Positions 11,190 to 53,887 of a stretch of DNA of 64,000 bases are shown here, in pieces. A program made the position numbers and the translations under genes. The notes beneath the pieces are model-generated. The model saw only the letters and a list, made by a program, of their open reading frames with translations, ran no database searches and was not told where the DNA came from. The stretch lies in contig JAJYXR010000003.1 in the NCBI GenBank assembly GCA_021801795.1, positions 1 to 64,000 on the forward strand, in the 5' to 3' direction. Every line of letters begins with the position of its first letter. Positions within the stretch are counted from its first letter, which is position 1. Source of the stretch: Actinomycetes bacterium. GTDB taxonomy: Bacteria > Actinomycetota > Acidimicrobiia > Acidimicrobiales > JAJYXR01.

Positions 11190-11476
11190 TCGTCCGGATC
11201 CTCGGCGAGGGGCAGTTCGAAGTTCCCGAAGACTGCGTCGCGAAGCTCGAGAAGCTCGACGACGATCTGATGAAGGCCGTCGACTCAGGCGACGAGGCGG
11301 CCTTCGACGCCGCACTCCTAAAGGTGCTGGCGGAGGTGCGGACCTCGTGCCAGCCGATACCACCCGAGGACATCCGGTCCTCCGACCTGGTCCTTCCGGA
11401 CTCCGACTCCACCTTGGACGACGTGAGGGAGATGCTGGAAGGAAAGGGGATACTGGCTGGCGGCGAGACCAGCTGA
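11186..11476 (+). CDS. pspAA: PspA-associated protein PspAA
   Basis: A 96-residue small protein, starting with MIVRILGEGQFEVPEDCVAKLEKLDDDL, which is diagnostic of PspAA. It is acidic with a C-terminal STLDDVREMLEGKGILAG helix. Its GTG start overlaps the pspA TGA in a GTGA, so translation is coupled. PspAA accompanies PspA in actinobacterial and some archaeal operons; its molecular role is not settled. Confidence 0.92.
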   Translation: MIVRILGEGQFEVPEDCVAKLEKLDDDLMKAVDSGDEAAFDAALLKVLAEVRTSCQPIPPEDIRSSDLVLPDSDSTLDDVREMLEGKGILAGGETS

Positions 11477-12393
11477 TGGCCACAGGCAACCGGATACCGC
11501 CCGACAGGGGGCTGTCTGCCAGGATGCTCCTGGTCGCCTTCCTGCTCGGGTTGCTCTACGTGGTGCTGATAGGAGCCCTCTTCGCCTTCGGGGTCTCCGC
11601 TGTGCTCATCATCGTGGTGGTCGGCGGGCTCTTCATCGCCCAGTACTGGTTCTCGGACAAGATTGCCCTTTATTCGATGGGTGGTCACGAGGTCACCCCC
11701 GAACAGGAGCCACGTCTCCACGGAGTAGTCGACCGGCTGACCGCTATGGCCGACATGAAGAAGCCCCGGGTGGCCGTAGCCAACACCGACATCCCCAACG
11801 CGTTCGCCACCGGACGCAGCCCGAACAACGCCGTCGTCTGCGCCACCACCGGCCTGCTGAGACGCCTGGACGAACCAGAGCTCGAGGCAGTGCTCGCCCA
11901 CGAGCTCTCCCATGTGGCTCACCGGGACGTCGCCGTCATGACCATCGCGAGCTTCCTCGGGATACTTGCGGGGCTGATCACCAGGGTAACCATGTACATG
12001 GGGCTCTTCGGTGGCTTCGGAGGAGACAGAGATGGCGAGGACGCGGCCATGGTGGAGATAGGCATAATGCTTGTTTCGGCCATCGTCTACGCGATCAGCT
12101 TCCTGCTCACCCGGGCACTGTCGCGCTACAGGGAGCTGGCGGCAGACCGGTCAGGGGCAATACTGATCGGTAGGCCATCCTTGCTGGCCTCCGCGCTGGT
12201 AAAGGTGACCGGCGAGATGTCCCGTATCCCCACCCGAGATCTTCGTTCGGCAGAGCACTTCAACGCCTTCTACTTCGCCCCGGCACTGGCAGGTGGGGTG
12301 AGCCTCTCCTCCCTCTTCGCCACCCACCCTCCCCTCCAGAAACGCCTCGATCAGCTGGCCAAGCTCGAGGCCGAGATGAACCGGCCCTCATGA
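11476..12393 (+). CDS. htpX: HtpX-like M48 membrane metalloprotease
   Basis: About 305 residues from ATG 11476, which shares its A with the pspAA stop (TGATG). Two N-terminal transmembrane helices (about residues 17-55) precede the catalytic domain. AVLAHELSHVAHRDVAV carries the HExxH zinc site; RYRELAADRSGAIL supplies the third ligand Glu. Two further membrane segments lie between. The C-terminal LFATHPPLQKRLDQL is typical of M48B. HtpX degrades misfolded membrane proteins, which fits the envelope-stress operon. A longer frame upstream is only the overlap with pspA in another frame. Confidence 0.95.
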   Translation: MATGNRIPPDRGLSARMLLVAFLLGLLYVVLIGALFAFGVSAVLIIVVVGGLFIAQYWFSDKIALYSMGGHEVTPEQEPRLHGVVDRLTAMADMKKPRVAVANTDIPNAFATGRSPNNAVVCATTGLLRRLDEPELEAVLAHELSHVAHRDVAVMTIASFLGILAGLITRVTMYMGLFGGFGGDRDGEDAAMVEIGIMLVSAIVYAISFLLTRALSRYRELAADRSGAILIGRPSLLASALVKVTGEMSRIPTRDLRSAEHFNAFYFAPALAGGVSLSSLFATHPPLQKRLDQLAKLEAEMNRPS

Positions 12394-25249: not shown

Positions 25250-25430
25250 CCTCAGCGGTCTGTGCCTGGGACCGGGCCGCCCGTCGGTTCGTGCCGGCTG
25301 GCCTCAGCGGTCTGTGCCTGGGACCGGGCCGCCCGTCGGTTCGTGCCGGCTGGCCTCAGCGGTCTGTGCCTGGGACCGGGCCGCCCGTCGGTTCGTGCCG
25401 GCTGGCCTCAGCGGTCTGTGCCGAGAACCA
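25250..25430. repeat. 52-bp tandem repeat, 3 full copies plus a diverged copy that is the ltp2 gene end
   Basis: Three near-identical 52-bp units occupy 25250-25405. The next, diverged unit (CCTCAGCGGTCTGTGCC...) contains the final codons and stop of the minus-strand thiolase gene. Read on the minus strand, each copy repeats the CACAGACCGCTGAGG that ends the gene. The tract therefore looks like repeated duplication of the gene's own 3' end. 25131-25249 holds nothing else I can identify. Confidence 0.92.
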
Positions 25431-26598
25431 GGCCGCTCGTCGGCACGCCGGTGCCGGCGGTCACCACCACGTGCTCGAGGGCGGGGATCTGGTTCACCGC
25501 ACTGCCCCGCACCTGACGCACGGCTTCTGCGATCCCGTTCATGCCGTGCAGGTATCCCTCTCCCAGCTGCCCACCGTGAGGGTTCAGCGGGAGCCTGCCA
25601 CCGATCTCTATCGCCCCGTCACGAACGAAGTCCCGAGCCTCTCCCCTGGCACAGAATCCGAGCTCCTCCAGCTGGTAGAGGACGAAGGGGGTGAAGTGGT
25701 CGTAGAGCACCGCGCACTGAACGTCATCTGGCCCGATGCCAGAGGTCTCCCAGAGCTGGCGTGCCACGACGGACATCTCCGGAAGCTCGGTCAGGTCATC
25801 CCTGTAGTAGGAGGTCATCATGTGCTGGTCTGCGCCAGACCCCTGCGCGGCGGCTCTGATGACCGCAGGCGGGTGGCGGAGGTCTCTCGCGCGTTCCAGG
25901 GAGGTGACCACCAGCGCCTGGCCACCGTCGGTCTCCTGGCAGCAGTCGAGCAGCCTGAGTGGCTCCACGATGAACCGGGAGGCCTGATGATCCTGGAGCG
26001 TGATCGGCTTACCGTAGAACCACGCCGCTGGGTTCGTGGAGGCATGTCTGCGATCCGCGACGGCTACCCTGCCGAAGTCCTCGGAGGTGGTCCCGGTGAG
26101 ATGCATGTAGCGCTGCGCGAACATCGCCACCCAGGACGCGGGCGTCAGCAGGCCATAGGGCGCGTACCATGCGAACTGGGCGCTCTCGGCGTTCGGGAGG
26201 GGGGGCAGGCCCTGGACGCCGGCACCGAAGCGGTTGCCGGAGCGCTCGTTGAAGGCCCGGTAGCAGACCACCACCTCGGCTACCCCGCTGGCCACCGCCA
26301 TGGCCGCCTGCTGCACCGTCGCGCAGGCAGCCCCACCGCCGTAGTGGATACGGCTGAAGAAGGTGAGCTCGCCGAGCCCGAGGCTCCGGGCAATCTCTAT
26401 CTCGGGATTGGTGTCGGCAGAGAAGGTGACGAGACCGTCCACATCCCCGGCATCTATGCCAGCGTCATCCAGTGCTGCTGCCACCGCCTCCACCGCCAGC
26501 CTGAGCTCGCTCCTCCCGGACTTCTTCGAGAACTCCGTAGCGCCGATACCGCTGAGCGCCGTGCGCCCCGCGTAGGAATGCCGTCTCTGCGCGCTCAT
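25408..26598 (-). CDS. ltp2: Ltp2-like thiolase-fold aldolase (steroid side-chain degradation)
   Basis: A 396-residue thiolase-superfamily protein of the SCP-x/lipid-transfer type. ALSGIGATEFSKKSGRSELRLAVEAVAAALDDAGIDAGDVDGLV is the standard N-terminus, followed by FSRIHYGGGAACATVQQAAMAVASG. The NPHGGQLGEGYLHGMNGIAEAVRQVRG block near residue 340 is the thiolase C-terminal domain. In Mycobacterium, Ltp2 with the DUF35 part of ChsH2 cleaves the last C3 unit of the cholesterol side chain by retro-aldol reaction. The assignment rests on this order: last gene after chsH1, a 4-bp overlap, and a ChsH2/ACAD/P450 cluster. Confidence 0.82.
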   Translation of the reverse strand: MSAQRRHSYAGRTALSGIGATEFSKKSGRSELRLAVEAVAAALDDAGIDAGDVDGLVTFSADTNPEIEIARSLGLGELTFFSRIHYGGGAACATVQQAAMAVASGVAEVVVCYRAFNERSGNRFGAGVQGLPPLPNAESAQFAWYAPYGLLTPASWVAMFAQRYMHLTGTTSEDFGRVAVADRRHASTNPAAWFYGKPITLQDHQASRFIVEPLRLLDCCQETDGGQALVVTSLERARDLRHPPAVIRAAAQGSGADQHMMTSYYRDDLTELPEMSVVARQLWETSGIGPDDVQCAVLYDHFTPFVLYQLEELGFCARGEARDFVRDGAIEIGGRLPLNPHGGQLGEGYLHGMNGIAEAVRQVRGSAVNQIPALEHVVVTAGTGVPTSGLVLGTDR

Positions 26599-27191
26599 CG
26601 TCCGCCCCCTCGGGGCTCGCCGCCATCCCCCCTGGGCTCGGCGCCATCCCCCCTGGGCTCGGCGCCATCCCCCCGGGGCTCGGCGCCATGGTCGAGGAGC
26701 CTTCTGTCTTCAGTAGCTGGCCGGTCTCCCGCTCCCCCACGGATCGGCAGGGCGACGCGCACGGTGCCGGTCACGTGGTTCCCTATGGAGTTCCTGCCGC
26801 GCACCTCCACATCCACCACTCCCCGACCCTCGTTGCGCTCCGAGGGACCCCCGAGGGAGCTGACCTGGCCGGTGAGCACCATGGTGTCACCTGGATAGTT
26901 CGGAGCACCCAGCCTGATGGCGATCGACTCTATGAGCCCACAGGGTCCGCTCCAGTCGGTCACGAACCTTCCCACGAGGCCGTTCGTGGTCAGGATGTTC
27001 ATGAAGATGTCCGGTGCGCCGCGCTGGCGGGCCAGATCGGGGTCATGGTGGACGTCCTGGTAGTCACGGGTGGCGATAGCACCCGCCACGATCAGACTGC
27101 GGTTCAGCTCCACCTCCAGCTGGGGCAGCGGACTTCCCACGGTGACGTCCTCGTAATGCATGGAGCCGACCTCCTCGGCTGTAGCGCTCAT
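26595..27191 (-). CDS. chsH1: ChsH1-like MaoC enoyl-CoA hydratase subunit
   Basis: About 198 residues from ATG 27191, which overlaps the preceding ACAD stop as ATGA. This is a single hot-dog domain. VAGAIATRDYQDVHHDPDLARQRGAPDIF carries the MaoC Asp/His dyad, and IRLGAPNYPGDTMVLTGQVSSL is the central strand. The last 30 residues are GAEPRGD repeats encoded by a 21-bp repeat. In the M. tuberculosis igr operon, ChsH1 pairs with ChsH2 to hydrate the steroid enoyl-CoA. Here the catalytic dyad is in this subunit, while ChsH2 has Tyr where His would be, consistent with a heteromer. Confidence 0.82.
   Translation of the reverse strand: MSATAEEVGSMHYEDVTVGSPLPQLEVELNRSLIVAGAIATRDYQDVHHDPDLARQRGAPDIFMNILTTNGLVGRFVTDWSGPCGLIESIAIRLGAPNYPGDTMVLTGQVSSLGGPSERNEGRGVVDVEVRGRNSIGNHVTGTVRVALPIRGGAGDRPATEDRRLLDHGAEPRGDGAEPRGDGAEPRGDGGEPRGGGR
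26612..26690 (-). repeat. 21-bp in-frame repeat (GAEPRGD) at the chsH1 3' end
   Basis: Nearly four copies of a 21-bp unit (GCCATCCCCCCTGGGCTCGGC in one copy, plus strand, diverging by one base) extend the ChsH1 tail immediately before its stop, which overlaps ltp2. Confidence 0.92.
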
Positions 27192-28333
27192 CGCCCAGGC
27201 GCTCCGCTCAGCAGATCCCCGAGAGCTGCCAGCTGACCGGCTGGGGAGCCCAGCATCAGCTCTATCTGCTTGGCCCAGAGGAAGTACCGGTGTATCGGGT
27301 AGGAGACATCCGCACCGATCCCGCCGTGGAGGTGCTGGGTCGCGTGGACCACCCGCTGGCCGGCTTCGGAAGCCCACCAGTGTGCTGCCGCCACCGCCGC
27401 CGCGGCATCCCGGCCCGTGTCGATCCGCCAGGCGGCCGACCAGAGCGTGAGGCGCATCGCCTCCACGTCCAGTGATGCGTCGGCAGCCCTCATCAGGGGT
27501 GCCTGGAACGACGAGATGGCACGTCCGAACTGCTGGCGCTCGTTCAGGTAGGCGGCAGTCCTCACCAGAGCCTCCTCGCATACCCCGAGCGCCATAGCAG
27601 CCAGACCCGTCCTGGCACGCAGGAGCAGCCAGTCGAGCACCTCTCTAGCGGTGCCCCGAGCTCCGAGACCATCGGGTGCTCCCAGCAGATCCTCGCTCGT
27701 CACCCGCGCACCGTCTATATGCATGTTCGGGTGCACCTGGCGGTCGGTGCACACCTCGCGCTCCAGCTCCACGGATTCACCGCGGGGGTCCACCAGGAAG
27801 GCCAGGTCTTCTCCCTCGTCGCTGCGCCCGAACGCCACCACCCGGTCAGCCAGGTGGGCCTGGGGGACCGCCCGCGCCGTTCCGGTGATCCGCCAGCAGC
27901 CGCGATCCTCTCTCGCCCTCAGCGGCACGGCCCTCTCGGGGAAGGAGCCCACCTCCGTTATCGCTGCGCTCAGCACCGCATCACCTGATGCCACCGCAGG
28001 CAGCCACCTCTCCTTCGCCGGCTCGGACCCGAAACGCGCCAGCGGCATCGCGCCCAGGACCACCGTCGCCAGCAGCGGTATCGGCGCGACCTGGCGACCC
28101 TGGGCCTGGAGCAGCAGGCAGGTCTCCACCAGGCCGAGCCCCGAACCACCGAAACGCTCCTCCACCGCGAGCCCCAGCAGGTTGGTGCTCGCCAGCTCCG
28201 CCCAGAGGCGCCGGTCGAAGCGATCCTCGGTGGCCTCCACCCCTGCCACCCGCTCGGGGGCCGCGCGGCCACTGAACACCGAGGAGGCAGCCTCCGAGAC
28301 TGCCTCCTGGGCCTCCGTGAAGGTGAAGTCCAT
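27188..28333 (-). CDS. acyl-CoA dehydrogenase, FadE28/ChsE1-like subunit
   Basis: About 381 residues from ATG 28333 (GGAGG eight bases upstream). The fold is standard: MDFTFTEAQEAVSEAASSVF helices, EERFGGSGLGLVETCLLLQ, a short middle beta-domain, and ARTGLAAMALGVCEEAL with FGRAISSFQAPLMRAADASLDVEAMRL. The QRVVHATQHLHGGIGADVSYPIHRYFLWAKQIELMLG tail is the FAD-contacting region. Divergent middle-domain sequence and the partner gene 29395-30585 suggest the non-catalytic half of an alpha2beta2 ACAD, as described for ChsE1-ChsE2. The exact orthology is inferred from synteny. Confidence 0.82.
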   Translation of the reverse strand: MDFTFTEAQEAVSEAASSVFSGRAAPERVAGVEATEDRFDRRLWAELASTNLLGLAVEERFGGSGLGLVETCLLLQAQGRQVAPIPLLATVVLGAMPLARFGSEPAKERWLPAVASGDAVLSAAITEVGSFPERAVPLRAREDRGCWRITGTARAVPQAHLADRVVAFGRSDEGEDLAFLVDPRGESVELEREVCTDRQVHPNMHIDGARVTSEDLLGAPDGLGARGTAREVLDWLLLRARTGLAAMALGVCEEALVRTAAYLNERQQFGRAISSFQAPLMRAADASLDVEAMRLTLWSAAWRIDTGRDAAAAVAAAHWWASEAGQRVVHATQHLHGGIGADVSYPIHRYFLWAKQIELMLGSPAGQLAALGDLLSGAPGR

Positions 28334-28367
28334 CAGGGCACCTCCAGCCACAGCCAGGACAGCGACC

Positions 28368-29384
28368 TCATCGGCCGACCGGCCTGAAGCGAGGAAGGGC
28401 TATCTCCTGGTCGATCATCTCGAAGCCGGCCTCGACCTCCATACCGATCGCGACGTCCGCTGGCTCGACACCGGCCATGTCCGCGACGATCCGCAGGCCC
28501 TCGTGGAGCTCCACCAGGGCCACCACCAGCGGGTAGTCGAAGGCCGGTACCTGGGGGTGGTGGACTACTACGAAGCTGAGCACCCTGCCCCTGGGGGAAA
28601 CCTCCACCGCGTCCCAATCGAGACTCCTGCACTCGGGGCACGCTGGGGCGGGAGGATGGCGCAGCTTCCCGCACGAACCGCAGGACTGGACCAGCAGCCT
28701 TCCTTCCCGTGTCCCCTCGAAGAAGAACGCCGAGTCCTCGGTGATCGCAGGACGCGGTCGCATTGCCCCCACGGCCGACCGAGGGGACTGCCTGGGCCGG
28801 AACTTCAGGATCCTGAAGTGCATGGTGGCCACGGCTTCACCCCTGGCGTCGGTGAAGTCCATGCGGGTGGTCAGAAAGTGCCCTGCACCGAGCGCGGTCT
28901 GCTTCAGCCCGGAGACTGATTCTATGGAGGAGCGAACACTCAGATGGTCCCCCAGGAAGAGGGGCCTCAGGTAATCCTGCTCGCAGTTCGTGGCGACCAC
29001 CGAGGTGAAGCCGGCCTCGTCCAGAAGCGCCATCAGCTCGTCGGTGGGCGAACCGGCCGACTCCCCAGCCGCGCGGGCGCGTTCGAGCTCGAGGCTGGCG
29101 CGATATCCGCGCATGATCCACGCCTGGAGCATGGCCGGCGGGGCGATCACGCCCGGCAGGCCGCATGCCCGGGCGGCCTCCTCGTCCAGGTATACCGGGT
29201 TCTCGTCACCCATGGCCTCGACGAAGTGACGGATCATGGCCTGGTTAACCGGATCGGCTGCAGGAGACGGTTCCCCCGAGGAGCGACCCTGGAAGGAGGA
29301 GAGCAGGTCCTGCAGGTCTTGACCTCCTCCCACGGCTGAAGCCGCGGGATTGCGCCCGCTGGTCCGCTCAGCCCTGCTGCTCAC
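28368..29384 (-). CDS. chsH2: ChsH2-like protein: MaoC domain fused to DUF35 zinc-ribbon/OB domain
   Basis: A 338-residue two-domain protein. The N-terminal hot-dog domain (about residues 40-200) has FVEAMGDENPVYLDEEAARACGLPGVIAPPAML; the usual MaoC His is replaced by Tyr in NPVY. The C-terminal DUF35 domain (about 220-338) has a zinc ribbon with Cys235, Cys238, Cys249 and Cys252, then the OB-fold strands GRVLSFVVVHHP and YPLVVALVEL. This architecture is diagnostic of ChsH2 of steroid side-chain degradation, whose DUF35 part binds Ltp2. It sits between the two ACAD genes. Confidence 0.88.
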   Translation of the reverse strand: MSSRAERTSGRNPAASAVGGGQDLQDLLSSFQGRSSGEPSPAADPVNQAMIRHFVEAMGDENPVYLDEEAARACGLPGVIAPPAMLQAWIMRGYRASLELERARAAGESAGSPTDELMALLDEAGFTSVVATNCEQDYLRPLFLGDHLSVRSSIESVSGLKQTALGAGHFLTTRMDFTDARGEAVATMHFRILKFRPRQSPRSAVGAMRPRPAITEDSAFFFEGTREGRLLVQSCGSCGKLRHPPAPACPECRSLDWDAVEVSPRGRVLSFVVVHHPQVPAFDYPLVVALVELHEGLRIVADMAGVEPADVAIGMEVEAGFEMIDQEIALPRFRPVGR

Positions 29385-29394
29385 GGCTCCCTCC

Positions 29395-30585
29395 TCACCG
29401 GTCTATCCGCCGCCTGGCTCCGGCCATGCCGAGCCCGAGGGTGGCGACGATCTCACGCTGGACCTCGTTCACCCCCCCGCCGAAGGTGTTCACCTGGGCC
29501 TGCCTCGCCGCCTGCTCGAGCCGCCCACCGAGCACCGCGCCGGGCGATCCCGGCACCAGGTAGCCCTGGGCCCCGACGATCCCGAGCAGGCGGTGGTAGA
29601 CGTCGATGGTCCGCTCGGTCCCGAACACCTTCACGGCCGAAGAGTCTGCAGGACCTATGGTGTCCTTCGCCACCGCGACGGCCATCCGCCAGTTCATGAG
29701 GTACATGGCCTCGACCTCTGCCCAGGTGATGGCCAGCTCCGACTTCACCCATGGCACCTCGGCCAGAGTGCGACCGTCGCCAGCCCTCTGCGATGCTGCC
29801 CAGCTGGCCACCTCCTCCCACATGAGCCGGGCGAATCCACTCCAGGCTGCGAGGCCGATGCGCTCGTGGTTCAACTGGGTGGTGATCATCTTCCATCCAG
29901 CGTTCTCCTCGCCGATGCGGTAGCCGGCTGCCACGCGCACGTCGTCGTAGTAGGTGGCAGTGGTCGTAAGACCCCCGACGGTGGATATCGGGCTCCAGGT
30001 GAAGCCCGGCGCGCTGGTCGGGACGCAGAGGATCGAGATGCCCTGGTGCTTCGGTGCCCCCGGATCGGTACGGGCCGCCAGCCAGATGTAGTCGGCCTGG
30101 TCGGCGCCGCTGGTGAAGACCTTCGAGCCGTTCACCACGTAGTCGTCGCCGTCGCGCACTGCGACAGTAGCCAGCGAGGCGAGGTCGGTGCCAGCCTCCG
30201 GCTCGGTGTAGCCGATCGCGAAGTTTATCTCGCCCGCGAGGATGCCGGGCAGGAAGAACTCCTTCTGCTCGTCAGAACCGAAACGCATGATGGTAGGCCC
30301 AACGGTGTTCACCGTCACGAAGGGGAATGGCGCCGAGGCCCTGCGGGTCTCGTCGAAGAAGATGAACTGGTCCGTAGCGGGCCGGCCCTGCCCGCCGTGC
30401 TCCACGGGCCACCCGATGCCCAACCAGCCGTCCTTGCCGATCCGCCTGACTACCTGCCGGAAAACCTCGCCCCCCTCGCCTTCGTCCCGCAGTGCGATCC
30501 GCACCTCGTCGGTCAGGAGGTCCGAGTAGTAGCCCCGTAGCTCCTCGCGAAGGGCCATCTGCTCGGGGGTCTCCTCCAGGTACAT
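29395..30585 (-). CDS. acyl-CoA dehydrogenase, FadE29/ChsE2-like subunit
   Basis: A 396-residue protein, first gene of the side-chain operon. It begins MYLEETPEQMALREELRGYYSDLLTDE, then GWLGIGWPVEHGGQGRPATDQFIFFDE, FAIGYTEPEAGTDLASLATVA (FAD/acyl-CoA site), and ITTQLNHERIGLAAW. The C-terminus VNTFGGGVNEVQREIVATLGLGM is typical of FadE26/FadE29-type subunits. It pairs with the ACAD at 27188-28333. The start ATG lies only 9 bp past a KstR-type palindrome and has no visible ribosome binding site, so the message may be leaderless. Confidence 0.86.
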   Translation of the reverse strand: MYLEETPEQMALREELRGYYSDLLTDEVRIALRDEGEGGEVFRQVVRRIGKDGWLGIGWPVEHGGQGRPATDQFIFFDETRRASAPFPFVTVNTVGPTIMRFGSDEQKEFFLPGILAGEINFAIGYTEPEAGTDLASLATVAVRDGDDYVVNGSKVFTSGADQADYIWLAARTDPGAPKHQGISILCVPTSAPGFTWSPISTVGGLTTTATYYDDVRVAAGYRIGEENAGWKMITTQLNHERIGLAAWSGFARLMWEEVASWAASQRAGDGRTLAEVPWVKSELAITWAEVEAMYLMNWRMAVAVAKDTIGPADSSAVKVFGTERTIDVYHRLLGIVGAQGYLVPGSPGAVLGGRLEQAARQAQVNTFGGGVNEVQREIVATLGLGMAGARRRIDR

Positions 30586-30594
30586 CCATCATAG

Positions 30595-30608
30595 TGTAAC
30601 GCGTTCTA
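30595..30608. promoter_or_regulatory. KstR-type operator, exact match to TnnAACnnGTTnnA
   Basis: TGTAACGCGTTCTA fits every defined position of the published KstR motif. It lies 9 bp upstream of the ACAD start and would cover the promoter -10 (TACACT on the minus strand). Confidence 0.75.
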
Positions 30609-30674
30609 ATAATGATCGGCAACCAGGTGGGGGCTGTCGCGAAATTCGCGCTGGCCTTCGGCGTCACGGCGGCT

Positions 30675-30697
30675 TATGATAAGTGGAACACGTTCTC
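30675..30697 (+). promoter_or_regulatory. probable -10 box and imperfect KstR-type operator ahead of the P450
   Basis: TATGAT (30675-30680) is followed three bases later by TGGAACACGTTCTC (30684-30697), which matches the KstR motif at all but the last defined base. This is the expected layout for a repressor site next to a start point. No good -35 is seen. Confidence 0.6.
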
Positions 30698-30819: not shown

Positions 30820-32046
30820 ATGGTCCAGCTGAGCGACATCGACCTCACCGACTCGAGGAACTTCGTGGCACGGGTTCCCCACGACTGGTTCGCCTACCTA
30901 CGCCGACACCACCCCGTGTTCTGGCACGAGGAGACCGGCGGCTCGGGCTTCTGGTGCGTCACCAGATATGCAGACTGTGTCGCGGTCAACCGGGATGCCG
31001 AGCACTTCTCCTCCCACCTCGGCGGCGTGCTCATCTGGGACCAGGAGCCGGAGCTTCTGGAGCAGCAGAGGCTCATGATGCTGAACATGGACCCACCGCT
31101 GCACACCCGCTACCGCCGCCTGGTTAACAAGGGCTTCACGCCCAGGATGATCGCCCAGCTCGAAGGGCGGATCCACGCAGCCACCGACCGCATCATCGAC
31201 CAGGTATGCGAGAAGGGGGAGTGCGACTTCGTGACGGAGATCTCAGCCGAGCTGCCCCTGATAGTCATCGCCGAGCTGCTCGGCGTTCCAGACGAAGACC
31301 GCTACCAGATGTTCGACTGGTCCAACCGCATGGTCGGCAACGAGGACCCCGAGTACCAGATATCGCCCGAGGCCGCCACCGAGGCCGCCATGGAGCTCTA
31401 CGCCTACGCGGCAGACCTCTTCGCGAAGAAGCGTGCGAACCCCCATGAGGACCTGATGAGCATCCTCACCCAGGTCGAGATCGACGGCGAGCAGCTCTCG
31501 GAACTGGAGCTGGAGCTGTTCTTCCTACTCCTCACCGTCGCCGGGAACGAGACCACCAGGAACCTCATATCGGGAGCCATGCATGCCTTCTTCGAGCATC
31601 CCGACCAGTGGCAGCGCCTCATAGCGGATCGCTCCCTCCTGCCGGGCGCGGTGGAGGAGATGCTGCGCTTCGTCTCTCCTGTGATGGAGTTCCGGCGCCA
31701 GGCGGTCTCGGACTGCCAGATCGGATCGGCAGAGGTGAGAGCAGGTGACAAGGTGGTCTTCTGGCACGTCTCCGCGAACCGTGACGAAGAGGTCTTCGCT
31801 GACCCCGACTCCTTCGACATCTCCCGTAACCCGAACCCCCACATGGCCTTCGGTGCCGGCGGTCCCCACTTCTGCCTAGGGGCTAACCTCGCGCGCATGG
31901 AGATAAGGGTCATGTTCGAGCACCTCCTGGACCGGCTCCCCGACATCCACCAGGCCGCACCCGTCCAGCGTCTGCAGTCGAACTTCATAAACGGCGTAAA
32001 GCACCTGCCGGTCGCCTTCAGCCCTGCAGCTGTCCGGGCGAGCTGA
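30820..32046 (+). CDS. CYP125/CYP142-like cytochrome P450 (steroid C26/27 monooxygenase candidate)
   Basis: About 408 residues from ATG 30820, with an AGGAG site. P450 landmarks are all present: I-helix LLTVAGNETTRN, EMLRF (ExxR), and the heme loop FGAGGPHFCLGANLAR with Cys near residue 352. GFWCVTRYADCVAVNRDAEHFSSHLGGVLIWD and the end LQSNFINGVKHLPVAF resemble mycobacterial CYP125/142, which oxidise the sterol side-chain terminus to a carboxylate. Divergent placement from the igr-like operon across KstR-type sites supports this role. The upstream leader has two GC-rich hairpins (30751-30766 and 30783-30796). Confidence 0.85.
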   Translation: MVQLSDIDLTDSRNFVARVPHDWFAYLRRHHPVFWHEETGGSGFWCVTRYADCVAVNRDAEHFSSHLGGVLIWDQEPELLEQQRLMMLNMDPPLHTRYRRLVNKGFTPRMIAQLEGRIHAATDRIIDQVCEKGECDFVTEISAELPLIVIAELLGVPDEDRYQMFDWSNRMVGNEDPEYQISPEAATEAAMELYAYAADLFAKKRANPHEDLMSILTQVEIDGEQLSELELELFFLLLTVAGNETTRNLISGAMHAFFEHPDQWQRLIADRSLLPGAVEEMLRFVSPVMEFRRQAVSDCQIGSAEVRAGDKVVFWHVSANRDEEVFADPDSFDISRNPNPHMAFGAGGPHFCLGANLARMEIRVMFEHLLDRLPDIHQAAPVQRLQSNFINGVKHLPVAFSPAAVRAS

Positions 32047-32177: not shown

Positions 32178-33074
32178 GTGCGATTCCACCAGGCCGTCGC
32201 GTTCCTTCCCACATCGGAGATCGTCGCCCTTGCGGGGGCCTCGGAGGAGCTCGGCTACGACGGGGTCTACCTCTCCGACCATCTCTTCAACGCCCGGGAT
32301 CTGCGAAGCCGGTATGCCTATTCGACCTCTCCCGACGGATCGCCCTACTGGGCAAAGGAGACCGAGTGGCCCGACCCCATGGTGCTCATCTCCCATCTCG
32401 CTGCCCTCACCAGCGGCATCGTCTTCACGACCGGCATCTACGTGGCGCCAGTGCGCGACCTGGTAACGGTGGCGAAGACCGTGGGCACCGCTGCCGTCCT
32501 GTCCGCGAACAGGGTCAGGCTGGGCGTGGGAGTCGGCTGGTGCGCCGAGGAGTACGCCGCTACCGGTCAGGACTTCCATACCCGCGGCAGGCGACTGGAC
32601 GAGATGATCGTCGCGCTGCGACGCCTATGGAGCGGTGGCTGGGTGGAGCACCACGGCACCTACTACAACATACCCGCCTGCCAGATGAACCCTGCCCCGA
32701 CCCAGCCAGTGCCCATATACGGCGGCGGCGACTCCGATGCCGCGCTCCGGCGGGCCGCAGAGCTCTGCGACGGGTGGCTGACCACCGGAGCCTGCACACC
32801 GGAGGAAGCCTCCGGCCAGCTTGCCCGTGTCCGCCAGGCTCTCGCACGCGCAGGTCGCCTGGGATCGCCATTCGACACGTACCTGGCCCTGAAGGTCACC
32901 CCGTCGGTGGACGTCTACAAGGGCTTCGCCGACGAGGGCGTGACTGACATGCTCTGCGCACCCTGGATGTCAGCCAGTGTCTCGCCAGAGGACTCCCCCG
33001 AGTCCCGACTGAAGAAGCGCATGGAGGCCTCCGAGCGCTTCGCGGAGGAGATCCTCGAGAAGATGGACCGCTAG
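32178..33074 (+). CDS. LLM-class F420-dependent oxidoreductase
   Basis: A 298-residue protein starting at GTG. MRFHQAVAFLPTSEIVALAGASEELGYDGVYLSDHLF and FTTGIYVAPVRDLVTVAKTVGTAAVLSANRVRLGVGVGWCAEEY match the compact F420-LLM family (TIGR03619-type). PVPIYGGGDSDAALRRAAELCDGWL is the phosphate-binding barrel end. It lies in the same direction after the P450 and abuts the next LLM gene with no gap. A steroid-related F420 reaction is possible, but the substrate is unproven. Confidence 0.86.
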   Translation: MRFHQAVAFLPTSEIVALAGASEELGYDGVYLSDHLFNARDLRSRYAYSTSPDGSPYWAKETEWPDPMVLISHLAALTSGIVFTTGIYVAPVRDLVTVAKTVGTAAVLSANRVRLGVGVGWCAEEYAATGQDFHTRGRRLDEMIVALRRLWSGGWVEHHGTYYNIPACQMNPAPTQPVPIYGGGDSDAALRRAAELCDGWLTTGACTPEEASGQLARVRQALARAGRLGSPFDTYLALKVTPSVDVYKGFADEGVTDMLCAPWMSASVSPEDSPESRLKKRMEASERFAEEILEKMDR

Positions 33075-34109
33075 ATGAAGGATCTGAAGCTCGGACTCCA
33101 GCTCGGTTACTGGGGTGCGTCTCCGCCACCCGACGCGGCTGGGCTGGTCGAGGAGGCCGAGAGACTCGGATTCGACTCCGTCTGGACTGCCGAGGCATAC
33201 GGCTCTGACGCCCTGACACCGCTGGCCTGGTGGGGATCTCGCACCGAGCGCCTGAGGCTCGGCACTGCGCTCTGCCAGCTGTCCGCGAGAACCCCGACGG
33301 CGATGGCGATGGCAGCCCTTACCATGGACCACCTCTCGGGTGGCCGGTTCGTGCTCGGGCTCGGGGTGTCAGGTCCCCAGGTGGTGGAGGGCTGGTACGG
33401 TCAGCCCTTTTCGAAGCCCCTGGCCCGCACCCGTGAGTACCTGTCGATCATCAGGAGCGTCCTGGCCCGCTCGGAGCCGGTAAGGAGCCCGGGGCCTCAC
33501 TATCCCCTTCCCTTCCCCGGCGGGACCGGCCTCGGCAAGCCGCTGAAGCCCATAGTTCACCCGCTGCGCGCGGACATCCCCATAATCCTCGGCGCCGAGG
33601 GCCCGAAGAACGTGGCGCTGGCAGCAGAGATAGCAGACGGCTGGTTCCCCATCTTCTTCTCCCCTGCCCACATGGGCGAGTTCGAGTCCGCGCTGGCCGA
33701 GGGGTTCGCGATGCCATCGGCCAGACGCCGGCGCGAGGACTTCGAGGTGATCGCCTTGTGCCCAGTGGTCATCGACGACGACATCGAGCGTGCCGCGGAC
33801 TCCTTTCGTCCATATCTGGCCCTCTACATAGGGGGCATGGGCGCCAGGAAGATGAACTTCCACTTCGACGTCTTCTGCAGGATGGGCTTCGAGGCAGAGG
33901 CGAGGAAGATACAGGATCTCTACCTGGCAGGTCACCGGACCGAGGCTGCCGCAGCAGTGCCCCGTGGGATGGTGGAGGGCATATCCCTCATCGGGCCGGT
34001 CGCGAAGATCCGCTCCGACCTCGAAGCCTGGCGTTCCTCCATAGCCACCACGCTGCTGGTCTCGGGAGATGTGACCGTGCTGCGGACAATGGCCGAGCTG
34101 GTTGGCTGA
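33075..34109 (+). CDS. LLM-class F420-dependent oxidoreductase (Rv3520c-like)
   Basis: A 344-residue protein whose ATG directly follows the preceding TAG. KLGLQLGYWGASPPPDAAGLVEEAERLGFDSVWTAEAYGSDALTPLAWWG is close in style to the F420-dependent enzyme Rv3520c, a member of the mycobacterial KstR regulon (from memory, not searched). LGLGVSGPQVVEGWYGQPFSKPLARTREYLSIIR and PIILGAEGPKNVALAAEIADGWFPIFFSP complete the barrel. The steroid context supports a catabolic role, but the reaction is unknown. Confidence 0.86.
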   Translation: MKDLKLGLQLGYWGASPPPDAAGLVEEAERLGFDSVWTAEAYGSDALTPLAWWGSRTERLRLGTALCQLSARTPTAMAMAALTMDHLSGGRFVLGLGVSGPQVVEGWYGQPFSKPLARTREYLSIIRSVLARSEPVRSPGPHYPLPFPGGTGLGKPLKPIVHPLRADIPIILGAEGPKNVALAAEIADGWFPIFFSPAHMGEFESALAEGFAMPSARRRREDFEVIALCPVVIDDDIERAADSFRPYLALYIGGMGARKMNFHFDVFCRMGFEAEARKIQDLYLAGHRTEAAAAVPRGMVEGISLIGPVAKIRSDLEAWRSSIATTLLVSGDVTVLRTMAELVG

Positions 34110-34294: not shown

Positions 34295-35173
34295 GTGACA
34301 TTGTCAGAGGTCCTACGCCTGCCCCACATCCCATCGGTGAACCTTGGTTTCGTCGAGCGGGTCAGCCTGCCGGGCCGTGGCAGGTGCCGGGTGCGCCTGG
34401 TCCCACCGCCCGCGCCTGGCAGCCCCGTGGTGACCCTCCTGCATGGATGGACTGCCACCGCCGACCTGAACTTCGCCACCGTGATGGCCCCGCTGTCGGA
34501 ACGCTTCGGGATCGTGGCCCCCGACATGAGAGGCCACGGAGGCGGTATCCGCTCGCACGAGCGCTTCAGTCTCGAATCCTGCGCTGACGATGTCGCGGAG
34601 CTGCTCGAGGTGCTCGACGTCGGACCCAGCATCCTCCTCGGCTACTCCATGGGAGGCCCCATCGCCCTGCTGGCCGCCAGGCGCCACCCGGAGGCAGTCC
34701 GGGGATTGGTGCTCTGCGCCACCGCTGCGCGCCTTGGCAGGAGCAACGCAGGCCGCCTGGCACTCGGAGCCCTCGGCGCCGTCGGCATGGCTGCCCAGTC
34801 GGCCATGCTCCGCGTCGTCCACCAGGGCGCGCTACCCCGGGAGGTCATAAGGCACCTGCCGACCCCCCTAGGTCATGACCTCACCCAGGTGGCCGAGGTC
34901 GGAACCGAGCTTGCCCGCTTCGACGCCCGGCCCTGGCTGGACGAGATCCAGATGCCGACCGCCCTGGTGCTGACCCGTAACGACCACGCGGTCCCCCCGG
35001 CAGATCAGCAGGTACTCGCCCAGGGCCTGGCTGGATGCAGGCTCTTCGAGGTCGAGGGGGATCACGACGTCTGTCTCAGCCCGAACCCGGTGTTCGAGTC
35101 GACCGTCTGCGCAGCGGTCACCGAGGTCGCCCTCAGCTCGAGGCGATCAGCGCACCGAGCCTCAGCAGGCTAG
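34295..35173 (+). CDS. alpha/beta-fold hydrolase
   Basis: About 292 residues from GTG 34295, chosen for the AAGGGGGG eight bases upstream. VVTLLHGWTATADLNFATV is the oxyanion region, FGIVAPDMRGHGGG the next strand, ILLGYSMGGPIALLAARRHP the nucleophile elbow with Ser, LVLTRNDHAVPPADQQ the acid strand, and FEVEGDHDV the His. It could act on a steroid-derived thioester or ester. Its 3' end overlaps the convergent ACAD by 41 bp. Confidence 0.84.
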   Translation: MTLSEVLRLPHIPSVNLGFVERVSLPGRGRCRVRLVPPPAPGSPVVTLLHGWTATADLNFATVMAPLSERFGIVAPDMRGHGGGIRSHERFSLESCADDVAELLEVLDVGPSILLGYSMGGPIALLAARRHPEAVRGLVLCATAARLGRSNAGRLALGALGAVGMAAQSAMLRVVHQGALPREVIRHLPTPLGHDLTQVAEVGTELARFDARPWLDEIQMPTALVLTRNDHAVPPADQQVLAQGLAGCRLFEVEGDHDVCLSPNPVFESTVCAAVTEVALSSRRSAHRASAG

Positions 35174-36263
35174 GGGTAGCCCCGCCAAGCGTAGGCGCGA
35201 GCTGCTTGGTGATCAGGTAGTAGCGATGCAGTGGGTAGTCCCGGTCCACCCCCACACCACCGTGTAGGTGCTGGGCTCCATGGACCACCCGCTGGGCACC
35301 GTCGTCGGCCCAGAACTTCGCCACTGCCAGAGCCTCGGCTGCAGGCAGTTCCTCCGCCAGGCGCCATGCTGCCTGCCAGGCGCTCAGGCGCACTGCTTCG
35401 GTGTCCACGTACGCGTCTGCCGCACGCTGGCCGACTGCCTGGAATGTGGCGATGGGTTTCCCGAACTGCTCGCGGGTGGAGGTGTAGGCCGCCGTGAGGG
35501 CGAGGGCCGCCTGGCAGCAGCCCGACTGCAGGACGCACATGGCAGCCATCACCCGCTCGAGCACCCAGGCCAGGGCATCGGGGGAGTCGGTCACCAGGGA
35601 CTCCGGGCCCACCCGCGTGTCCAGCTCGAACCGTGCCTGGGGGTAACCGGTGACGGTGGGCTGGGGCTCCCGGCTCAGCCCCTCCGCTGCGGTGTCCAGG
35701 ACGAAGATGGCCACACCAGACCTGCCTGCCTCCTCGATGCGCGCAGGCAGGACCACCGCGTCTGCATCCATGCCGGCCGGTACGCACGACAGGCTCCCCC
35801 GGAGGAACCACCCGTCCGCGTCCCGCAGGGCGCGTGTCGACCGGCTCACCGCTGCCACCAGATCGGACAGGTCGGACCCGAGCGCGCTGAAGCCGCCGGT
35901 GAGCAGAGTCGAGCCCTCGGTGACCCCTGGCAGCCAGCGCCGCCTCTGGTCGGGACTCCCGAAGCGCTCCAGTACCATTCCCCCGGCCAGGGTGCCGAGC
36001 AACGGGTCCACAGCAGCCCCAGCCCGGCCTGCCTCCTCCAGGACTATGCAGCTCTCCACGAAACCCCGCCCGGCCCCGCCCACGTCCTCGCCTAGCCCCA
36101 CTGCCAGCAGGCCCGCTGAGGCAAGCTCCTGCCAGAGCCTACGGTCGAACCACTCCCTCGCCAGCTCCCGCTCACGGAGCCTCGCGGGGGCTGCCAGGTC
36201 CTCGAAGATCCGGCGTGCGAGCGCCCTCAGATCCTCCTGGTCCTCGCCGAACGAGAAATCCAT
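35133..36263 (-). CDS. acyl-CoA dehydrogenase, FadE27/FadE28-type subunit
   Basis: A 376-residue protein. AGGAGG precedes the ATG. MDFSFGEDQEDLRALARRIFEDL starts the helical domain; GLGEDVGGAGRGFVESCIVLEE and a shortened, divergent middle domain follow. The C-terminal half has STREQFGKPIATFQAVGQRAADAYVDTEAVRL and QRVVHGAQHLHGGVGVDRDYPLHRYYLITKQ. It closely parallels the ACAD at 27188-28333 and probably pairs with the upstream ACAD, forming a second heteromeric enzyme like ChsE4-ChsE5. Confidence 0.84.
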   Translation of the reverse strand: MDFSFGEDQEDLRALARRIFEDLAAPARLRERELAREWFDRRLWQELASAGLLAVGLGEDVGGAGRGFVESCIVLEEAGRAGAAVDPLLGTLAGGMVLERFGSPDQRRRWLPGVTEGSTLLTGGFSALGSDLSDLVAAVSRSTRALRDADGWFLRGSLSCVPAGMDADAVVLPARIEEAGRSGVAIFVLDTAAEGLSREPQPTVTGYPQARFELDTRVGPESLVTDSPDALAWVLERVMAAMCVLQSGCCQAALALTAAYTSTREQFGKPIATFQAVGQRAADAYVDTEAVRLSAWQAAWRLAEELPAAEALAVAKFWADDGAQRVVHGAQHLHGGVGVDRDYPLHRYYLITKQLAPTLGGATPSLLRLGALIASS

Positions 36264-36368: not shown

Positions 36369-37544
36369 TCAGCGAAGCGACCTCGGCATGCCGAGGCCGA
36401 ATATGGCTATCAGGTCGCGCTGTATCTCGTTGGTGCCGCCGCCGAAGGTAAGTATCAGCATGCTGCGCGCGTACATCTCCAGGCGCCCCGAGATGACCGA
36501 GTCGGGTGCTCCCCTGGCCAGGTATCCCGCCTGTCCTACCACCTCGGTGAGCAGCCTGAATGCCTCCATGTAGAACTCCGTGCCGAAGACCTTGATGGTG
36601 GAGGCGTCCGCCACGTCGAGCTCGCCCCTGGTGGCGCTCCAGGCCACCTTCCAGTTTATGAGGCGGAGGAACTCGAGCTTCGCAGCCACCTTCGCCAGGT
36701 GGATACGGACCCACTCCTGGTCGATGACGCGACGACCGTCCTCGAGCCTGGTCTCCTTCGCCCAGCTCACGGTGTCGGCCAGCGCGCGCTCGATGATCCC
36801 AGGTGAGCACAGGGTGACCCTCTCATGGTTCAGCTGGTTCGTGATGAGCGTCCAGCCGTTGTCGAGGCCCCCTACCACGTTCGTGAGCGGCACCCTCACG
36901 CCCTCGAAGAAGGTGGAGTTTATGTTGTGCTCGCCCAGCAGCTGCATGGGCACCACACGGATGCCAGGTGAGTCCATCGGGACTATGACGATCGATATCC
37001 CCCGGTGCTTGGGAGCGTCGGGGTTCGTCCGCAGAGCCAGCCAGCAGTAGTCCGCGTCCCCCGCCAGGCTGGTGAACACCTTCGCGGCGTCGATCACGAG
37101 CTCGTCGCCGTCCACCACGGCCTTCGACGTGAGCGAGGCCAGGTCGGTGCCCGCATTCGGCTCCGTGTAGCCGATGCAGAACGAGATGTCGCCCGCGAGG
37201 ATACGCGGCAGGTAGAAGTCCTTCTGCTCCTCGGTGCCGAAGTCCATGATGGTGGGGCCGACGGTGTTGATCGTGAGCATCGGCACCGGCGCGCCAGAGC
37301 GCATCGACTCGTCGAAGAAGATGAACTGCTCCATGGCCGAGCGACCCTGCCCCCCGTACTCGCTTGGCCAGCCGATCCCCAGCCAGCCGTCTGCGGCCAT
37401 CTGCTTCACCACCCGCCTCACGCAGGGTCCTACCCCACCGCTGCGGGCCAGCTCCTCCTCCACCTCAGGCGTCAGCAGACCGGCGTAGTACTCGCGCAGC
37501 TCGGCCCGCAGTGCCTCCTGTTCCTCGCTGTAGCCGATCTCCAC
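36369..37544 (-). CDS. acyl-CoA dehydrogenase, FadE26/FadE29-type subunit
   Basis: About 391 residues from GTG 37544 (AAGGGGGCGAGG upstream); an extra 14 codons are open upstream. VEIGYSEEQEALRAELREYYAGLLTPEVEEEL, GWLGIGWPSEYGGQGRSAMEQFIFFDE, FCIGYTEPNAGTDLASLTSKA, LITNQLNHERVTLCSP and LILTFGGGTNEIQRDLIAIFGLGMPRSLR mark it as the catalytic-type partner, paralogous to the ACAD at 29395-30585. A KstR-type palindrome lies 57 bp upstream. It probably acts on an earlier side-chain intermediate, as ChsE4 does. Confidence 0.86.
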   Translation of the reverse strand: MEIGYSEEQEALRAELREYYAGLLTPEVEEELARSGGVGPCVRRVVKQMAADGWLGIGWPSEYGGQGRSAMEQFIFFDESMRSGAPVPMLTINTVGPTIMDFGTEEQKDFYLPRILAGDISFCIGYTEPNAGTDLASLTSKAVVDGDELVIDAAKVFTSLAGDADYCWLALRTNPDAPKHRGISIVIVPMDSPGIRVVPMQLLGEHNINSTFFEGVRVPLTNVVGGLDNGWTLITNQLNHERVTLCSPGIIERALADTVSWAKETRLEDGRRVIDQEWVRIHLAKVAAKLEFLRLINWKVAWSATRGELDVADASTIKVFGTEFYMEAFRLLTEVVGQAGYLARGAPDSVISGRLEMYARSMLILTFGGGTNEIQRDLIAIFGLGMPRSLR

Positions 37545-37601
37545 TACCTCGCCCCCTTCTGGCGGCACCGCACCCGGCTGGCGCATGCCACGAGCTGCTC
37601 C

Positions 37602-37615
37602 TAGAACACGTTACA
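37602..37615. promoter_or_regulatory. KstR-type operator, exact match to TnnAACnnGTTnnA
   Basis: TAGAACACGTTACA fits all defined positions. It lies in the divergent gap between two ACAD genes, which could place both under the same repressor as the igr-like operon. Confidence 0.72.
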
Positions 37616-37665
37616 GCTTTGCACAGCTGGTCACCGGGTGCCAGCCCGAGGGAGCTCATTCAGCA

Positions 37666-37770
37666 GGTGGTCCGGACGCAGGTGGTCCGGACGCAGGTGG
37701 TCCGGACGCAGGTGGCCGATGTACAGGTGGCCGAGGTACAGGTGGTCAGGACGCAGGTGGCCGATGTACC
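37666..37770 (+). repeat. 15-bp tandem repeat, 7 units of two subtypes
   Basis: Three copies of GGTGGTCCGGACGCA and four related units (GGTGGCCGATGTACA type) lie between the KstR-type operator and the start of the downstream ACAD. The frame stays open through them as VVRTQ/VADVQ, but translation of this part is doubtful. Confidence 0.93.
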
Positions 37771-37777
37771 CTCGGGC

Positions 37778-39010
37778 GTGGACCTTTCCTACCCCCCCGA
37801 GGCAGAGGCCTTCCGCAGCGAGGTGCGCGGGTGGCTCCTCGCGAACCTACCGGAAGGATGGGGCCAGCCCGGCTTCTCCATGACCAGGCAGGAGCGCCAG
37901 CGCTTCAACGAGGAGTGGGTGGCAAAGCTCCGGGAGGGCCGGTGGCTGTGTGCCTCCTGGCCAAGCGAGTACGGCGGTCGGGGCCTGTCGGTGATCGAGC
38001 AGGTGGTGCTCACCGAGGAGTTCGCCGCGCTGGACGCGCCGATGCGTGCGGACTTCTTCGGCGACACCCTGGTCGGGCCCACCATCCTGAAGTGGGGCAC
38101 CGAGGACCAGAAGCGCAGGTTCATCCCACGCATACTCGACGGCAGCATCAGCTGGTGCCAGGGATTCTCCGAGCCCGACGCGGGGAGCGACCTCGCGTCC
38201 TTGAAGACCCGGGCCGAGCTCGACGGTGACGAGTGGGTGATAAACGGCCAGAAGGTCTGGACCACCCAGGCCCAGTATGCCGAGTACATCTTCCTGCTGG
38301 CCCGCACCAACCCAGAGGCCCCGAAGCACCAGGGCATCTCCTACCTGCTCGTCGAGATGCGCCAGCCGGGGATCGAGGTGCGGCCCATACGCCAGATCGA
38401 CGGCACCGCCGAGTTCAACGAGGTCTTCTTCACCAACGCCCGCTGCCCGAAGGACAACGTCGTCGGCGGCGTCGACAACGGCTGGAAGGTGGCGATGACC
38501 ACCCTGGGATTCGAGCGGGGAGCCTCCTCCACCACGGGGCACCGGCGGTTCATGAAGGAGCTCGACCTGGTCATCTCCGAGGCCAGGCGCACCGGCAGGA
38601 TCAGCGACCCCTTGGTGCGCCAGGGGCTCGCCAGAGCCTGGGGGATCGTGAAGATAATGCAGGTAAACGGCTACAGGAGCCTTACCGACACCCTGAACTC
38701 CACCCACCAGGCAGCCGCCCTGGGCGCAGTTCACAAGATGCTCTGGTCCGAGTACCACCAGCGCGTGATGGAGCTAGCCGTGAACATGCTGGGGCTCGAA
38801 GGCCAGATCCTCACCGGCTCTGGGGCCACCGAAGGTGAGCTGACCGGTGGGATAGGAAGGCGCGGGAGTGCCGACTACCCGGTAAGCGAGCTCCAGGCCT
38901 CCTTCTTCTTCTCCCGCTCCGAGACCATCTGGGGTGGCGCTGCAGAGATACAGCGGAACATCGTCGGGGAGAGGGTGCTCGGCCTGCCGAAGGAGCCGCG
39001 ACCGTCCTGA
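37778..39010 (+). CDS. acyl-CoA dehydrogenase
   Basis: About 410 residues if started at GTG 37778, ahead of DLSYPPEAEAFRSEVRGWLLANLPEGWG. In-frame GTG codons inside the upstream repeat make the start uncertain. LCASWPSEYGGRGLSVIEQVVLTEE, CQGFSEPDAGSDLASLKTRAELDGDEWVINGQKVWTTQAQYAEYIFLLART and TLGFERGASSTTGHRRF are full-length ACAD motifs; FFFSRSETIWGGAAEIQRNIVGERVLGLPKEP is the canonical C-terminus. It resembles the homotetrameric type rather than the heteromeric pairs. It is divergent from the FadE26-type gene across a KstR-type site. Confidence 0.87.
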   Translation: MDLSYPPEAEAFRSEVRGWLLANLPEGWGQPGFSMTRQERQRFNEEWVAKLREGRWLCASWPSEYGGRGLSVIEQVVLTEEFAALDAPMRADFFGDTLVGPTILKWGTEDQKRRFIPRILDGSISWCQGFSEPDAGSDLASLKTRAELDGDEWVINGQKVWTTQAQYAEYIFLLARTNPEAPKHQGISYLLVEMRQPGIEVRPIRQIDGTAEFNEVFFTNARCPKDNVVGGVDNGWKVAMTTLGFERGASSTTGHRRFMKELDLVISEARRTGRISDPLVRQGLARAWGIVKIMQVNGYRSLTDTLNSTHQAAALGAVHKMLWSEYHQRVMELAVNMLGLEGQILTGSGATEGELTGGIGRRGSADYPVSELQASFFFSRSETIWGGAAEIQRNIVGERVLGLPKEPRPS

Positions 39011-43214: not shown

Positions 43215-44156
43215 ATGACCGTCGTAGTGGACGTCCCGGCGAAGGTAGCCGACAGGCTGAACACCGTGAGCACCACCAGGCGTTGGTATCCCTTCGAGCC
43301 AGACGTCATCGACTGGTCGGTTCCCCTTACCGGCGACTGGGCATACGTGGCTGCCGGCAGATCCATCTTCTCTGCCTCTGGGATCCTCGACAGGCTCGAG
43401 CCGGCGGATCGGAGCTTCGTCGAGCGCTGGGAGACCACCCAGTTCATGCGTAACGTCGCCCATGGCGAGCACCTGCTGAACCAGGGGATACTGGCGATGC
43501 TCTGGCAGGTAGACCCCTACGACCCGAGCTACCGCTACCTGCTCCACGAGGTCGCGGAGGAATGCCAGCACATGGCCATGTTCAACCACTGGGTGCGGAT
43601 AAACGCGGACATCCGGACACGAGACGCGGGTGAAGGCGCCTGGAGCCAGGCAGTCGCCCAGTTCACCCAGGACCTCGCGACGAGGATCCCGGAGGCATTC
43701 TGGGTGAACGTGCTGCTGTTCGAGTTCGTGGGTGACGAGTCGAACCAGATGATGCGCTCCACCCCACGGGGGGACGACGGCAGGCCGCTGCATCCGATCC
43801 TGGTCCAGATCGGGGTGGCCCACACCTCCGAGGAGGCCAGGCACATCGCCTACGCCAGGCGATGGCTGCACGAGGGCATGCCGGGACTCGACGACGACCA
43901 GGTGGCCGAGGTCCAGCGACTGGCCGAGCTCGGCGCCCAGGCAGTCATCGACCGCCGCCAGTTCCTGCCGGTCCACTACTCACGCCAGCTCGAGCCCTAC
44001 ATGTCCAAGGAGGAGTTCGACTCGGCCAGAGGCGCCACCCCTGCCTCCCTGGCACTTCTCTCCCAGCTAAAGAAGCTGCTCGACGAGTTCGAAGAGCTCC
44101 GGGTCGTTAGCAGCGAGGCGATGCGCCGCTGGGAGGATGCAGGTGCCTTCGAGTAA
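43215..44156 (+). CDS. AurF-like diiron oxygenase
   Basis: A 313-residue protein. A GGGGAGG site precedes the ATG. Carboxylate/His ligands of a diiron centre are visible: VAHGEHLLNQ, LLHEVAEECQHMAMFNHW (ExxxH), LFEFVGDESNQ and AHTSEEARHIAYARRW (ExxRH). Spacing fits the AurF/PF11583-type family, which includes an arylamine N-oxygenase. The substrate is unknown. The 3' end overlaps the TetR gene by 20 bp, so the two are probably coexpressed. Confidence 0.86.
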   Translation: MTVVVDVPAKVADRLNTVSTTRRWYPFEPDVIDWSVPLTGDWAYVAAGRSIFSASGILDRLEPADRSFVERWETTQFMRNVAHGEHLLNQGILAMLWQVDPYDPSYRYLLHEVAEECQHMAMFNHWVRINADIRTRDAGEGAWSQAVAQFTQDLATRIPEAFWVNVLLFEFVGDESNQMMRSTPRGDDGRPLHPILVQIGVAHTSEEARHIAYARRWLHEGMPGLDDDQVAEVQRLAELGAQAVIDRRQFLPVHYSRQLEPYMSKEEFDSARGATPASLALLSQLKKLLDEFEELRVVSSEAMRRWEDAGAFE

Positions 44157-44868
44157 GGCCCTCGACCGTGCCGGCGGACCCAGCGCACCTCGAGCTGCCA
44201 GCTTCGCGCCCCAACGCGCTGAGCGCCCTGCAGCCCGGCCCGACCGGCGCCGCAGCGACACGCGCCTACGCATCCTGGAGGCCGCTGCCGGCCTCTTCGC
44301 CGAGCAGGGCTACATGGGCACGTCCATCGCGTCCATCGAGGCCGCGGTGGGCCTCAGGGCCGGATCCGGTGGCTTCTACAGGCACTTCCCCTCGAAGGAG
44401 GCCCTGCTCTCTGCCATAGTCGAAGGCTACCGGGAGCGGCTGGCCATGGTGCGCTCGACGCTCGCGATCGAGTGGGCATCGGATCCGAGGGCAGGCACCG
44501 GGTGCCGCCTGCCCGATCCCGCCGATGACCTGAGAAGGGTGCTCGCAGCCCTGGTGAAGTTCCTCGAGGGCGAGGAGGCCATGCTCCACATAGGAGCAGA
44601 CCTGAGCGGGCTGCCGGCGAGCGCCAGGACTGCCATCGGGGATGCCTGGGACGAGTCCTACGGCATCTTCGCGGACCTCTTCAGCGCATACGGCTGCGAC
44701 GCCGACCGCGCCCGGGTGCTCGGCGTGAGCGCGCTCGGTGGGCTGGCCCACTACTTCGTCCACCTCCGTAACTGGGCCAGGCCACCTCTCGGGGTAGGGA
44801 TCGACCCGTTCCTCGCCACCTGGACCAGCCAGTGGAGCGCCGCGCTCGCAGAGGTGTCCAGTAGCTGA
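44137..44868 (+). CDS. TetR-family transcriptional regulator
   Basis: A 243-residue protein; the first 40 residues are Ala/Pro/Arg-rich and the true start may be internal. DTRLRILEAAAGLFAEQGYMGTSIASIEAAVGLRAGSGGFYRHFPSKEALLSAIVEGY is a complete TetR helix-turn-helix. The C-terminal ligand domain has ALGGLAHYFVHLRNW. It most likely represses its own operon through the GTAAGTAG palindrome. It is not obviously the KstR that would bind the steroid operators. Confidence 0.9.
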   Translation: MQVPSSKALDRAGGPSAPRAASFAPQRAERPAARPDRRRSDTRLRILEAAAGLFAEQGYMGTSIASIEAAVGLRAGSGGFYRHFPSKEALLSAIVEGYRERLAMVRSTLAIEWASDPRAGTGCRLPDPADDLRRVLAALVKFLEGEEAMLHIGADLSGLPASARTAIGDAWDESYGIFADLFSAYGCDADRARVLGVSALGGLAHYFVHLRNWARPPLGVGIDPFLATWTSQWSAALAEVSSS

Positions 44869-52411: not shown

Positions 52412-52602
52412 CCCCACGCCCCCTTCGTCGTCCAGCAGGCGCCACCGCAGGCCCTAGGCCGGGTGAACCCCCTGGGTGGTTCGCCAACATTCACCAGGGC
52501 ATACCGTCAGCCCCGTGGTGCCCCGTTACCCTAGCGCGCCTGGCACCAGCGCGGGCAATGGGAGCGCTGAGCCCGGATCCGAGCCGGGTTAGGAGCCGAC
52601 CC

Positions 52603-53844: not shown

Positions 53845-53887
53845 CTCTGCCTTCCCTCGATCCCCTCCTGCACTTCGGTCCCTGACC

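Follow-up and report, generated by a model that had tools for sequence, protein, structure and literature searches.

In a 64,000-nucleotide stretch of an Acidimicrobiales genome (the window, meaning the whole stretch that was analysed), three sites are very probably operators of a KstR-type TetR repressor whose gene lies elsewhere in that genome. Two of them (operators 1 and 2) lie between the divergent genes for a FadE28-like acyl-CoA dehydrogenase (ACAD) and a CYP125-type P450, and the third (operator 3) is upstream of a FadE26-type ACAD gene; the coordinates are given in Table 1. The initial annotation had interpreted the first two as KstR-type operators served by a trans-acting repressor, and the comparisons presented here support that interpretation. 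Both sites are genuine, the first being an exact match to the consensus and the second one base away from it, as had been described, but the third was overlooked.

Table 1. Predicted operators, promoter elements and neighbouring genes in the window.
Feature	Positions	Strand	Evidence or remark
Operator 1, TGTAACGCGTTCTA	30595..30608	.	Distal to the P450 gene, overlaps predicted -10 of the ACAD operon; 21.4 bits
Operator 2, TGGAACACGTTCTC	30684..30697	.	Over predicted start point of the P450 gene; 18.9 bits
Operator 3, TAGAACACGTTACA	37602..37615	.	Upstream of FadE26-type ACAD gene; exact consensus match; 22.6 bits
Predicted -10 (TACACT), ACAD promoter	30593..30598	-	Read from sequence; overlaps operator 1; TATACT at same place in G001
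-35-like TTGCCG, ACAD promoter	30622-30617	-	Spacing 18 to TACACT
Predicted -10 (TATGAT), P450 promoter	30675..30680	+	Ends four bases before operator 2; TATCAT at nearly the same place in G001
CYP125-type steroid C26-monooxygenase	30820..32046	+	Best solved relatives CYP125MRCA (E 2.6e-168) and CYP125 (E ~1e-104)
Two luciferase-like, probably F420-dependent oxidoreductases	32178..34109	+	Downstream of P450; Pfam Bac_luciferase; TIGR03619 for the first
FadE28-like steroid ACAD	29395..30585	-	First gene of igr-type operon; Tcur3483 (6wy8) E 1.1e-152; 4x28 E 1.8e-127
ChsH2-type hydratase with DUF35 domain	28368..29384	-	4wnb ChsH2 E 5.8e-41; 6ok1_B ChsH2(DUF35) E 5e-40; Pfam
Second ACAD, FadE29-like by position	27188..28351	-	NCBIfam ACAD matches; identity positional
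MaoC-type hydratase, ChsH1-like by position	26595..27581	-	Pfam MaoC, under cut-off
Ltp2, retro-aldolase of thiolase fold	25408..26598	-	PRK07855, 689 bits (cut-off 469); 6ok1_A E 7e-186
FadE26 (ChsE4)-type ACAD	36369..37586	-	Behind operator 3; best solved match 4x28_A E 1.3e-130
Partner ACAD, FadE27-like by position	35133..36263	-	Pfam ACAD; identity positional
Further ACAD, divergent from FadE26 across operator 3	37664..39010	+	NCBIfam pimC_large-like, 264 bits; exact start uncertain

The sites were scored with a weight matrix built from 47 published mycobacterial KstR motif instances (Kendall et al. 2007, PMC1995591, table 3). Under this matrix the known sites have a mean of 21.9 bits and a 10th percentile of 18.2, and all three operators score at that level. 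They are also the three highest of the 64,000 positions in the window (operator 3, then 1, then 2), the next position reaching 12.0 bits. When the loose consensus was applied with one mismatch to the 64-kb window alone, five matches were found against a shuffle mean of 2.8, which is not significant, and a count within the range of the shuffles is what chance matches to a degenerate palindrome would give. Such an origin has a negligible probability in the face of the matrix gap, the genome-wide enrichment and the conservation in relatives described below, and it is contradicted by the retention of both sites, at an altered spacing, in a genome of the same family (G001, FK3.bin72).

The mechanical ORF of the P450 gene starts at 30676, within the promoter, and so includes operator 2. 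Its likely start is the ATG at 30820, behind GAGGAG, and operators 1 and 2 are therefore read as non-coding. It had also been proposed that each site adjoins a -10 box for its own direction. This is plausible from the sequence, with TATGAT placed four bases before operator 2, and TACACT overlapping operator 1. The predicted start point of the ACAD transcript is near 30586, so that a leaderless mRNA is possible. At several other sites in the genome the final TA of the operator opens a -10-like hexamer (GTTCTATACT, GTTCTACTATG, GTTCTAGGAT), and an overlap of KstR operator and -10 box was described by Kendall et al. (PMC1995591). Degenerate tandem repeats of 12–15 bp (ggtggtccggacgca) occupy 37660-37760, between operator 3 and the rightward ACAD gene. 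Elsewhere, the window carries type IV pilus/type II secretion-like genes (PilM, T2SSF, T2SSE) at 50687-55873.

G001 holds both operators of the divergent region, separated by 54 bases compared with 89 in the window. Its equivalent of operator 1 is TATAACGTGTTCTA, while the operator 2 14-mer is identical and follows the -10-like TATCAT. This bears on a variant of the main explanation, in which a single one of these operators mediates the action of KstR and operator 2 is too weak because its final A is replaced by C. Operator 2 does score lowest among the three operators, with one mismatch, but preservation of the 14-mer with the same C, just behind a -10-like box, makes the variant unlikely, as does the counterpart in a second relative, G045 (TGGAACACGTTCTG), which keeps the first 13 bases.

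The genome is a 2.5-Mb metagenome-assembled genome (MAG), 92% complete. It was scanned with two patterns having an intact AACnnGTT core (the consensus and VNNAACNNGTTHYA) and the matches were scored by the matrix, a procedure by which sites with a broken core could be missed. Exact consensus matches number nine, against one for the reversed control; with one mismatch the enrichment is weak (188 against 104). Nine sites reach at least 17.7 bits (C15:33415, C34:8082, C34:22322, C34:25429, C40:30595, C40:30684, C40:37602, C40:182557 and C41:175274) and seven reach at least 20 bits, where an order-3 Markov simulation predicts 1.1 per 2.5 Mb at 17 bits or more and about none at 20 or more. The motif is thus strongly enriched across the genome, and does not occur at the frequency of shuffled sequence. 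High-scoring sites are found at promoters, and low-scoring consensus matches mostly within genes. Exact matches in C1, C26, C27 and at C41:13398 were rejected as operators because of their scores (6 to 15 bits) and their positions within predicted genes.

Nearly all of the nine sites front genes of sterol side-chain type. Besides those in the window, sites precede a gene for FadA5 (PRK07850 over cut-off; 4ubv, E 8e-171) with an EchA19-type hydratase, a PRK07798 acyl-CoA synthetase gene, and a CasI/FadD17-like ligase gene divergent from that of a luciferase-like monooxygenase. The targets present at sites are cyp125, the igr operon, fadE26, fadA5, echA19 and fadD17/19-type genes. Further sites front an SDR/ligase pair, an alpha/beta hydrolase and an NMO-type flavoprotein, three targets that homology alone does not tie to sterols. 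Luciferase-like oxidoreductase genes repeatedly adjoin KstR sites, as in the window (Table 1) and at L032:4247-5377. Tandem ggccagag repeats at L032:2200-2280 immediately precede the operator that belongs to the PRK07798 gene.

There is no KstR gene in the window, and the repressor had accordingly been predicted to act in trans. A single KstR homologue was found in the genome, at C16:17895-18404 (minus strand), which is a different contig; the predicted repressor is therefore present. The protein has a TetR N-terminal HTH and the KstR-type C-terminal domain PF17925, both over cut-off, and is the only such protein in the genome. It matches solved M. tuberculosis KstR with E 2e-30; the HTH region is identical at 37 of 59 positions (63%), the remainder at 32 of 124, and the GGYEAVQMR recognition region is kept. 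Against the NCBIfam KstR model NF033703 it scores 157 bits (E = 3e-46), under the equivalog cut-off of 280, and is for this reason termed a KstR-type homologue and not a formal equivalog; all of the Acidimicrobiales KstR homologues found fall under the same cut-off. The operators might instead belong to a different TetR-family regulator sharing the AACnnGTT core, such as the one encoded in the window at 44137-44868, and about 12 TetR_N proteins, including this one, are available in the genome. However, the combination of PF17925 and the GGYEAVQMR region occurs only in the C16 protein, and every genome with a FadE26 site carries KstR, making another owner highly improbable. No operator was detected upstream of kstR in this genome (best score -3.4) or in G001 (best 3.3), while some relatives keep one there (L109, at 22.8, L104 and L111). 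kstR and a second TetR-family gene are divergently oriented (L029:9877-10467 and 10604-11491).

Almost all of the named relatives that were found are Acidimicrobiales MAGs. CYP125 was preceded by a site scoring 15 bits or more at 28 of 79 loci, compared with 16 of 2,218 control windows. The CYP125-like loci without a site, roughly two thirds of the total, belong largely to other P450 clades; on a quick tree of the P450s, those bearing a site group together. Ahead of the FadE26 orthologue, 22 of 30 relatives have a site (21 at 15 bits or more and one at 14.8). By our own tally all 22 of these genomes carry KstR, and the three genomes lacking KstR also lack the site. KstR and CYP125 co-occur as well (30/38 against 4/61 genomes; Fisher p 7e-14). 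In one CYP125 clade all 21 loci have a site, often TGATACACGTTCTA or TGACACACGTTCTA, in which one half-site reads TAC or CAC instead of AAC. Variant half-sites upstream of the P450 gene are found at L134, L136, L138, L139, L143, L149, L155, L157, L160, L166 and L167, and the change possibly reflects a drift of KstR specificity.

Operator 1 covers the predicted -10 box and the spacer of the promoter that drives the leftward ACAD operon, and operator 2 the point at which the rightward P450 transcript is predicted to start. One KstR dimer bound at each operator would therefore exclude RNA polymerase, acting as a roadblock on the two promoters separately. We infer binding and repression in this organism from these arrangements. 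The likely inducer is deduced from studies of other actinobacteria, where 3-oxocholest-4-en-26-oic acid or one of its derivatives, for example the CoA ester, has that role (PMC7807495). Upon entry of a sterol, KstR would bind the CoA thioester formed from the oxidised side chain and leave the DNA, and side-chain degradation would be switched on. An inducer that is a product downstream of CYP125 would give rise to a positive induction loop.

The arrangement resembles the KstR regulon of M. tuberculosis and M. smegmatis (PMC1995591) in operator sequence, -10 overlap and divergent promoters, in having an intergenic region with two operator copies (there Rv3570c/Rv3571), and in sharing as targets cyp125 and the igr operon along with fadE26, fadA5 and echA19; the full target set found here, which also includes the PRK07798 and CasI/FadD17-like ligases, is in large part under KstR in mycobacteria too. 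It differs in the number of sites (nine, compared with 16 in M. tuberculosis and 31 in M. smegmatis), in a regulator that falls below the NCBIfam equivalog cut-off and has no operator at its own gene, in the divergence of CYP125 from the igr-type operon, and in that ring-degradation genes were not detected. Nocardioides simplex, a non-mycolate actinobacterium, has the same side-chain set under predicted KstR control (PMC7807495), but with 71 predicted KstR operons, KstR2 and ring-degradation genes.

Clustering of sites at steroid genes had been expected from a genome scan; it was seen, but at side-chain genes, and the expectation is narrowed to these because ring-degradation enzymes were not found. 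KshA (PF19298) has no match in this or the sister genome and is present in 17 of 99 genomes. The only full-length FAD_binding_2 (PF00890) proteins in the genome are NadB and SdhA, so that KstD was not detected. The HsaC-type domain (PF22632) likewise has no match in the genome, by a profile uncalibrated against known HsaC. The presence of the side-chain gene set with KshA, KstD and HsaC undetected, in a MAG that is 92% complete, suggests that the KstR regulon here may be confined to the side chain. Extending this to the family is tentative, and we hold it with less than even confidence: KstR would control a side-chain-only regulon, the side chain being stripped for energy and the 9,10-seco ring pathway being absent, with C19/C22 steroid cores left for other microbes or for a non-canonical ring route.

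None of the papers searched mentions both KstR and Acidimicrobi-, and the class Acidimicrobiia is absent from the main text of a survey of steroid degraders published in 2016. The KstR operator code, which has been described chiefly in mycobacteria and in a small number of other actinobacterial genera, appears to extend, essentially unchanged in sequence, to uncultured Acidimicrobiales. The operators would offer a practical means of predicting sterol side-chain genes in Acidimicrobiia, and they raise a testable question, that of side-chain degradation without the canonical ring pathway.
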